This document shows, one piece after another, positions 10,434 to 12,116 of a DNA stretch of 52,385 bases. A model generated the notes under the pieces. The model was not told the DNA's origin and searched no databases. It worked only from the letters and a program-made list of their open reading frames with translations. Numbering within the stretch: position 1 is the stretch's first letter; the number at the start of each line of letters is the position of its first letter. Source of the DNA: Oscillospiraceae bacterium (lineage in GTDB: Bacteria > Bacillota > Clostridia > Oscillospirales > CAG-272); contig SVSN01000015.1 in assembly GCA_015064285.1 (NCBI GenBank), positions 1-52,385 of the forward strand, given 5' to 3'. The position numbers were made by a program, and so were the translations under genes.

Positions 10434-11168
10434 ATGAGAATGCGAAAAAAACGGCACGGAAATGAAAGACTGGAGGCTTTGGACGCACTTTTTATCCACA
10501 GCCAGGGCGAAATCTGGACCGATCTGCCGTCTCATTATGAAAAGGATCAGCCTCTGCGGATCGAAATCGGCTGCGGCAAAGGCGGATTCATCACCGGGAT
10601 CTCTCAGGTGCAGCCGGAATACAACTGGCTGGCTGTTGAGAAGATCAGCGATGTTATGGTATGTGCCGTGGAAAAATACGCTGGCGACAGAGGACTGGGC
10701 AAGCTGGGCTATCACGGCGGCTGGCAGGCTCCCGACGGAACTGTGTATGCCGGCGGTGAAAGCTGGGACATTCCCATGGGAGAGCGGGGCAATGTGCGGT
10801 TTACCGTTGGAGATGCCGCGGAAGTGCTGTCTCATCTGCCGGAAGGTTCCGTAGATGCCATTTACGCCAACTTCAGCGATCCATGGCCCAAGAAAGGATA
10901 TGCGGACAGACGGCTCACCAGTCCTGTTTTCCTGAAAGAATATCTTCGTGTTCTCCGGCCGGGCGGCGCGTTCCGTTTCAAAACCGACAACGACGTGCTG
11001 TTTGACTATTCACTGGAGACCATTGAAGCCAGCCCCTTCCGGATGACCTTCTGTACCAGAGATCTGCATCATTCCGAACGGGCAGCGGACAACATCATGA
11101 CCGAGTACGAACGGAATTTCAGCGAAAAGGGAATTCTGATCAAGTCGCTGGAAGCTGTAAAAGACTGA
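10434..11168 (+). CDS. trmB: tRNA (guanine-N7-)-methyltransferase, with an internal insertion
   Basis: SAM-dependent enzyme that makes m7G46 in the variable loop of tRNAs. About 244 aa. Visible signatures are the basic N-terminus (MRMRKKRHGNERLEAL), the SAM-binding motif IEIGCGKGGF, the family hallmark FSDPWPKKGYADRRL, RPGGAFRFKTDN, and the end motif TEYERNFSEKG. Between the third helix and the GDAAEVLSHLP strand there is an extra glycine/tryptophan-rich segment of about 25-28 residues (from GYHGGWQAPDG to DIPMGERG) not found in ordinary TrmB. The ATG at 10434 is chosen over one at 10440; a CGGAG lies about 11 nt upstream of it. Confidence 0.92.
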   Translation: MRMRKKRHGNERLEALDALFIHSQGEIWTDLPSHYEKDQPLRIEIGCGKGGFITGISQVQPEYNWLAVEKISDVMVCAVEKYAGDRGLGKLGYHGGWQAPDGTVYAGGESWDIPMGERGNVRFTVGDAAEVLSHLPEGSVDAIYANFSDPWPKKGYADRRLTSPVFLKEYLRVLRPGGAFRFKTDNDVLFDYSLETIEASPFRMTFCTRDLHHSERAADNIMTEYERNFSEKGILIKSLEAVKD

Positions 11169-11311
11169 AGACCACCGGAATCCGGATCCGCTGCGGCCGG
11201 AAAACGATATTTCCAGGAAAACGTTATTTCTTAGACGTGCCGCGGCGGGGAAAGGTTCCGGTATTTTCTGTTTTTATAAAAAATCCTGTGTCTGCAGGAA
11301 AACAGGGGCTG

Positions 11312-11399
11312 AAAAAAGAAAAAGACTTGACAAAGCAAGCCGGATGTGGTATACTTATCTTTACCGACAGAATCGCATAAAACCACACATATTATTTAC
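11312..11399 (-). ncRNA. Candidate small RNA, about 88 nt
   Basis: Predicted from signals, not from homology. A perfect SigA promoter on the minus strand (11406-11434) would start a transcript near 11399. The RNA can form a first hairpin (TGTGGT with ACCACA, further closed by TTAT/ATAA inside), then a second one made of GGCTTG and CAAGTC (plus-strand 11336-11341 and 11324-11329) with a 6-nt loop, directly followed by a run of twelve bases that is all T except for one C: an intrinsic terminator. No gene lies in its path; beyond the terminator it would be antisense to trmB. Its 5' part is antisense to the leader of the gene at 11514. It matches no small RNA I know. Confidence 0.6.
11327..11355 (+). 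promoter_or_regulatory. SigA-type promoter for the DUF6323/DUF6179-like pair
   Basis: TTGACA (11327-11332), 17 bp, TATACT (11350-11355). It faces the minus-strand promoter at 11406-11434 and lies within the DNA that encodes the candidate small RNA. The leader to the ATG at 11514 is about 150 nt. Its last part folds into a hairpin (TCCGTC 11466-11471 with GACGGA 11497-11502, plus an inner CCTG/CAGG stem) just before the ribosome binding site. Confidence 0.75.
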
Positions 11400-11405
11400 A
11401 TAAAT

Positions 11406-11434
11406 ATTATAGCACATTTGCGAAGGTCTGTCAA
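11406..11434 (-). promoter_or_regulatory. Perfect consensus SigA promoter on the minus strand
   Basis: On the minus strand TTGACA (11434-11429), 17 bp, TATAAT (11411-11406), preceded by an A/T-rich UP-like tract. All 12 box positions match consensus. There is no protein gene downstream, so it is assigned to the candidate small RNA. Confidence 0.75.
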
Positions 11435-11513
11435 GTGCCTTTTTGTGAATTTTTTGCATAAATTGTCCGTCGGAAACCTGAGGCAGGCGCCCGGCAGACG
11501 GAACGGAGGACAT

Positions 11514-12116
11514 ATGAACGCACTGATCACATTGGAAAACTTCGCCCTGCAGCCGATGGACGATAAGATCCTGGCGCTGAACACGGTTTCCCGGGAACAT
11601 GGTCTGCTGCTGACACCGGAGGACGCCAGAGAATTGTCGGAAATCCGTGAGCGTTCCCTGAAGGACAACGAACGGATCGAAATCGGTCTCGGCGCCATGG
11701 AAGGGATCATCCGGCGTTTTTCCAGATCCTCCTTCATCAATCAGGAAAATTACGCGTATGTCATTGCCGAAGTGACGGATCTTTTCTATTATATTAAAAC
11801 AGAGACGGATGACAAGGTCAGTGACACGGAGCTGCTGGACGAGCTGTATCTCCGTTTTGAACAGCGCTGCCGTGGGTCGGTGGATCTGCTGGTGAGCCGG
11901 GAGGGAGAAATCCTGATCCGGAAGATCAACGCCGGTGAAAACTATGAAAAATGGTTCGGGGAAACGGACAATGCGGATACCAGCAGAGATACGGATGTCA
12001 ATGCCCGCCGGGACGACAGCGGTGTTGTGGTACCTTACCTGACGGACGAAGACCGGAATATTGTCAAGGAACTGGAGAATACCTGGAAAGACGAGATGGA
12101 GGAAGACGATGACTGA
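11514..12116 (+). CDS. DUF6323-like protein of unknown function
   Basis: 200-aa soluble, acidic, mostly helical protein with no signal peptide or membrane segment. It resembles the Clostridia-specific DUF6323 family (the ALNTVSREHGLLLTPEDARELSEIRERSL and FYYIKTETDDKVSD regions fit). The C-terminal about 40 residues are very rich in Asp/Glu. The start at 11514 has a strong ACGGAGGA site 3-4 nt upstream. It overlaps the next gene by 8 bp, and the two families typically occur as a pair, which supports both calls. The pair is common in spore-forming Clostridia but I know of no established function. Confidence 0.75.
   Translation: MNALITLENFALQPMDDKILALNTVSREHGLLLTPEDARELSEIRERSLKDNERIEIGLGAMEGIIRRFSRSSFINQENYAYVIAEVTDLFYYIKTETDDKVSDTELLDELYLRFEQRCRGSVDLLVSREGEILIRKINAGENYEKWFGETDNADTSRDTDVNARRDDSGVVVPYLTDEDRNIVKELENTWKDEMEEDDD

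Follow-up and report, generated by a model that had tools for sequence, protein, structure and literature searches.

Bacterial antisense transcription is often hard to separate from noise. Phages 186 and P2 contain convergent promoters that can form switches, and the promoters of these phages, like those of prgQ/prgX, drive two sets of genes with known regulators. In Bacillus subtilis, ArrA, an RNA of 267 nt that is antisense to the 253-bp 5' leader of dnaA, is transcribed from a SigA-type promoter that lies downstream of the dnaA promoter and points against it; in the account cited here, the arrA promoter has a perfect -10, a -35 with two mismatches and a spacing of 16 bp (PMC12112137). Loss of the arrA promoter is described as raising both the mRNA and the protein of dnaA and dnaN, while ArrA is itself repressed by DnaA; 17 or more Bacillus species have candidates (PMC12112137). 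In the case of RnaG and icsA, inhibition is said to run both ways (PMC6597380).

The locus described here lies in a stretch of 52,385 nucleotides (the window) from an Oscillospiraceae bacterium, and consists of two predicted promoters that face each other ahead of the genes for DUF6323 (PF19848; 11514..12116, plus strand) and DUF6179 (PF19677; 12109..12726, plus strand, its start taken as the ATG at 12109), which are followed by SpoIIGA-family and sigma-70-family genes. The minus-strand promoter, P- (11406..11434), is predicted from its sequence to be of the sigma-A type, with TG ahead of the -10; as the original prediction had it, TTGACA-17-TATAAT is present at 11434..11406 with 12/12 box positions at consensus, and this is the best promoter of the window, being the only 12/12 promoter there. 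P- was also said to face the promoter of the DUF6323 gene, and P+, the presumed promoter of the DUF6323-DUF6179 operon, is indeed found on the plus strand at 11327..11355 as TTGACA-17-TATACT, nearly as good a promoter sequence as P-, with a trmB-like tRNA methyltransferase gene (Methyltransf_4; 10434..11168, plus strand) upstream of it. When start sites are placed 7 nt past each -10, at 11362 on the plus strand and 11399 on the minus strand, the two predicted transcripts overlap by 38 nt, in agreement with the approximately 38 nt earlier said to be shared with the DUF6323 leader, and the 38 bp that separate the starts (11362..11399) would give the two RNAs complementary 5' ends. The minus-strand product would be a dead-end RNA of approximately 85-88 nt (11312..11399, minus strand). 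The 6-bp hairpin GGCTTG/CAAGTC (11341..11324) followed by T5-C-T6 that had been noted after the minus promoter is present at 11341..11312 on the minus strand, and this intrinsic-terminator-like element lies inside the -35 region of P+; a second terminator-like hairpin followed by T6 (11278..11299, minus strand) is a possible back-up. The related loci on named contigs (n = 17) come from metagenome-assembled Clostridia, Oscillospiraceae or Ruminococcus, and the stated sources are ruminants. In the window (11327-11360) and at L004, L005 and L008, P+ resembles apparent tRNA-gene promoters of the genus (ACTTGACAAA..GATGTGGTATACT type), an extended sequence which suggests that P+ may be a strong promoter of the growth type.

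P- by itself is not more than chance would provide, but the facing pair is. A lone 12/12 promoter is unremarkable because TTGACA-17-TATAAT occurs in 154 copies in the 3.2-Mb genome of this bacterium (reversed-pattern control, 0). Of the 25 genomes of the genus, 8 contain the exact facing pattern, at a single place in each and always at this locus, either 5' of DUF6323 or, in G008, next to trmB at a contig end (reversed-pattern control, 0). The 350 nt ahead of the gene were then scanned under a strict definition (each promoter at least 10/12, span 98-114) and a looser one (at least 9/12, span 70-135). The strict scan identified a pair at 14/19 DUF6323 loci in the genus, 12/35 in the rest of the family and 4/16 in other families, counts which, like those that follow, come from related loci and overstate independence. 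Strict pairs were absent from 1400 dinucleotide shuffles, and 309,555 bp of natural sequence, drawn from the window, 63 upstream regions and 30 control loci, yielded none at any other place. Under the looser definition the pair was present at 14/19 genus loci, 17/35 family loci in which DUF6323 comes first and 5/16 loci of other families, against a background of 52 in 1400 shuffles and 12 pairs at other places in these 309,555 bp. At family loci without a detected DUF6323, the pair was found 5' of DUF6179 in all cases (12/12), giving 29/47 family loci outside the genus. The pair is not indispensable, since it is missing from 5/19 genus, 18/47 family and 11/16 other-family loci. Within the family, facing pairs are not confined to these genes, because the exact pattern is present in 52 of 295 family genomes and only 6 of the 30 places examined are at DUF6323 or DUF6179. 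Facing consensus pairs recur within single genera (G054, G114, G156, G199 and G234 in g31; G150 and G192 in g22), and are also present in g71, at L059 (G219) and L058 (G303), two loci with no match to DUF6323, DUF6179 or thrS. Three genomes of g53 have two copies of DUF6179 and carry the pair at one copy each (L097, L106 and L114, as against L090, L110 and L101).

The distance between the outer ends of the two -35 boxes is 99-112 nt at 34 of the 48 pair loci and 104-107 nt at 21 of them. Spans at loci with thrS upstream are broad (71-132), and the other pair loci fall within 99-114 with the exception of L144 (75). Inspection by eye also revealed what seem to be back-to-back promoters 5' of DUF6323 at L127, L129, L130, L115, L133 and L138-L142, with a common centre like CAAGTCTTGT; at several of these the minus promoter is near a hairpin terminator. 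Tandem repeats of roughly 100 nt each were likewise noticed by eye 5' of DUF6323 at L137.

The genes upstream of the pair differ between the genus and its relatives. In the genus, trmB is on the plus strand at 13/14 pair loci, with the fourteenth at a contig end, and it was not found in the 47 upstream regions of other family genera; by this comparison the pair tracks DUF6323/DUF6179 and not trmB. No divergent gene was seen at the genus pair loci, where trmB reads towards P+. Among the pair loci outside the genus, a minus-strand thrS (Pfam-checked in one member) was found upstream at 18/34, and it lies 274-496 nt beyond P- (L088, L092, L094, L096, L098, L102, L105, L107-L109, L111, L119, L122-L126 and L128). 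At gathering score, no Rfam family, the T-box among them, matched the thrS leaders of these 18 loci. At these loci P- can, to judge from its position, drive thrS, and its presence there is explained by expression of that gene. Several other pair loci outside the genus also have a minus-strand upstream gene, and the Pfam assignments, at one locus each, are typA (L116), a xylose-isomerase-like gene (L091), a HAD hydrolase (L112), an isochorismatase (L136), a GNAT acetyltransferase (L144) and DUF218 (L145), with a pyrophosphatase-like gene slightly below the Pfam cut-off at L120. Plus-strand neighbours, again at one locus each, are a helix-turn-helix gene (L117) and a Mg-chelatase-family gene (L118). 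L113 is a thrS locus without a pair in range.

The occurrence of a divergent thrS at so many loci outside the genus raises the question of whether a promoter that formerly served such a gene has left P- in the genus as a relic without function. In keeping with this, the genus has trmB upstream instead of thrS, and no tRNA-synt_2b match was found on the DUF6323 contig in the four genus genomes searched. However, identity of DUF6323 within the genus goes down to 47% and the P- spacers have a mean identity of only 42%, yet the -35 of P- is invariant over the 12 genus pair loci compared. The remaining two of the 14 (L013 and L014), left out of the comparison because their P+ spacer is 18 nt long, have TTGACT. 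The same contrast is visible when the window is set beside the two relatives nearest to it (protein identity, 88 and 91%): identity across the P- spacer is 35-53%, little above the random level, whereas the -35 is invariant and the -10 varies only among TATAAT, TACAAT and TATACT. On this comparison the boxes of P- are under selection, and a terminator pattern unique to the locus has also been retained, so that a relic is decidedly unlikely. The spacer of P+ is 82-94% identical among the same three sequences, and high identity would be expected of a spacer that also specifies the terminator for the minus-strand RNA.

In 9 of the 25 genus genomes P+ has the form CACTTGACA-N10-CAAGTG-N-TATAAT, at one place each and always at this locus, and the pattern is otherwise absent; on the minus strand it reads as a hairpin and then a T-run. 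The window, L013 and L014 have other stem letters. A T-run that abuts the -35 of P+, together with a stem of 5 or more pairs, was found at 14/14 genus pair loci, compared to 3/14 in a mirror test for the plus-strand RNA and 1/30 for control 12/12 promoters drawn from two genus genomes; best stems with at least 2 G-C pairs numbered 11/14, 2/14 and 0/30, respectively. A strict terminator within 150 nt is present at 13/14 loci in the genus and 3/3 in g55, at 3/13 of the remaining pair loci and after 5/30 control promoters. It is scarce (1/18) at the thrS loci, at which there is a gene for P- to express; L116 is an exception in that typA is on the minus strand yet a terminator is present. Across 17 sequences (14 from the genus and 3 from g55, representing few lineages), the two outer stem pairs covary (C-G, G-C and U-A; A-U, G-U and G-C), with mismatches in 1/17 at the outermost pair and in 1/17 and 2/17 at two inner pairs. 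These compensating changes lend modest support to the terminator stem. The terminator-like hairpin is kept across the genus, yet it is weak in the window, where its energy of -4.2 kcal/mol is the weakest among the first terminators folded (L014, -5.6; L021, -8.9; L026, -9.3; L118, -17.5). L018 and L019 have kept P+ and are without both P- and the terminator. Conservation, including this co-occurrence of promoter and terminator, thus gives good support to a minus promoter and a predicted short, terminated transcript facing the DUF6323 promoter, as first proposed.

Since the two promoters are arranged inversely about a short centre, their boxes could instead be binding sites for a regulator, with P- never transcribed. 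This is extremely unlikely: the -10 variants of P- are mostly promoter-like (TATAAT, TACAAT and TATACT, with TAAGAT at L021), a terminator lies downstream in the direction of P-, P- precedes thrS elsewhere, and a common central motif is lacking, as no motif shared between the promoters rose above shuffles.

The predicted minus-strand RNA is itself poorly conserved. In the window it folds somewhat better than shuffled sequences (z = -2.24, with 5 of 200 shuffles folding equally well), but RNAalifold gave 0.0 and no common structure for the 14 genus RNAs (76-89 nt), and conserved sequence in these RNAs is restricted to the part shared by the terminator and P+. The original prediction spoke of a candidate new small RNA, and in the usual sense of that term it is not upheld, as neither the body nor the upper hairpin is conserved in the genus. 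Of the two stems for which a test of compensatory changes had been suggested, the terminator stem shows such changes, and the upper hairpin is the one without conservation. A 9-codon frame (MCGFMRFCR) is present in the window as reported, and a closed match was found in only L011 (MCGYMQFFR) among the 14 genus RNAs. Rfam, a search of which had been suggested, returned no family for the whole window at gathering score or for 11160-11520 at E <= 1. An own promoter and terminator and a discrete predicted size would suit a regulatory small RNA acting in trans, as would the fold in the window. Such an RNA is nevertheless very unlikely to be made here: over the 14 genus RNAs no conserved body or seed was found, and the window's upper hairpin is missing from the predicted fold at L012.

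A role in cis makes fewer demands on the RNA. An own promoter opposite the target leader, as expected of an antisense RNA to a 5' UTR, is present and conserved in the genus as judged from sequence, and the minus-strand RNA might be the effector if its 5' end (28-42 nt), by pairing with that of the operon mRNA, altered the stability or translation of the message. The predicted starts overlap by 28-42 nt at 14/14 genus pair loci, and an unconserved body is allowed, as pairing in cis requires no conserved sequence. In addition, mutation of the arrA promoter is described as giving no detectable rise of the dnaA transcript in vitro, so that direct interference is not the sole known route (PMC12112137). 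We consider this unlikely as the main explanation, however, since in the window the overlap stops approximately 115 nt ahead of the DUF6323 start, distant from the ribosome-binding site, and the clustered geometry and near-consensus boxes fit polymerase traffic better. Pairing of the 5' ends is perhaps a second route beside interference. The ideas of promoter interference or 5'-end antisense pairing put forward originally are favoured by the finding that promoters, distance and terminator are conserved rather than the RNA, and the better conservation of the promoter layout in this group of gut bacteria suggests that opposing transcription may be the control device.

We conclude that P- probably acts in cis, as a conserved promoter opposing the DUF6323-DUF6179 operon and limiting or switching it by polymerase interference, a reading that draws on sequence comparison for the pair, its geometry, the selection on P- and the terminator. 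Polymerase footprints are such that two open complexes with start sites approximately 30-40 bp apart should touch or exclude one another. Polymerases at P- and P+ would face each other at this distance, and we infer that they would exclude each other or collide, with every P- transcript crossing P+. Activity of P- would then hold the operon down and tie it inversely to a housekeeping-type promoter, if the presumed direction of regulation is correct. In the genus, P- would have no gene to serve, and its transcript would be halted after approximately 85 nt by the terminator inside P+. Read-through from P- would give an RNA antisense to trmB, and a terminator in this position may spare trmB such antisense transcription. 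More tentatively, the DUF6323-DUF6179 module may include an opposing promoter of its own, constrained in its geometry (start sites approximately 35 bp apart), the useful product of which would be the polymerase and not the RNA; this promoter would serve whichever gene is upstream (thrS, typA or others) or else would be an orphan with a terminator in the facing promoter, forming an RNA-independent switch or limiter.

The locus may be regarded as a natural evolutionary control, in which the opposing promoter is kept without a gene to serve, a terminator accompanies it and its RNA drifts, and it makes selection on antisense promoter activity itself directly testable. It also offers a first regulatory handle on the uncharacterised DUF6323 and DUF6179, for which none was found in the full texts of openly licensed papers. 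The combination of an orphan near-consensus facing promoter, a terminator in the opposing promoter and a spacing kept across families did not come up in searches of openly licensed papers. Like ArrA and dnaA, the locus has an opposing promoter, a predicted RNA antisense to the leader and a downstream terminator, but the account cited does not place the ArrA terminator within the opposing promoter (PMC12112137). It also resembles MtlS and mtlA of Vibrio cholerae, for which convergent sense and antisense promoters are reported and transcriptional interference is considered likely; in MtlS/mtlA and RnaG/icsA, as described there, complementarity extends over 71 bp and 120 nt and the antisense promoter is in or at the coding region (PMC6597380), whereas here it is approximately 38 nt and both promoters are near consensus and intergenic. 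The thrS-DUF6323 loci are like the excludon of Listeria in having divergent genes with overlapping opposed transcripts, but the excludon is presented as a long antisense RNA across neighbouring genes, while the overlap predicted here is tens of nt (PMC4179725). In this genus an excludon is rejected, as no divergent gene was seen; the 18 thrS loci elsewhere match it in form. As in prgQ/prgX of pCF10, where interference by occlusion, sitting-duck and collision is described and the arrangement is capable of switching (PMC4519249), the two predicted promoters face each other. Unlike such convergent switches, one side here makes only a short predicted RNA.
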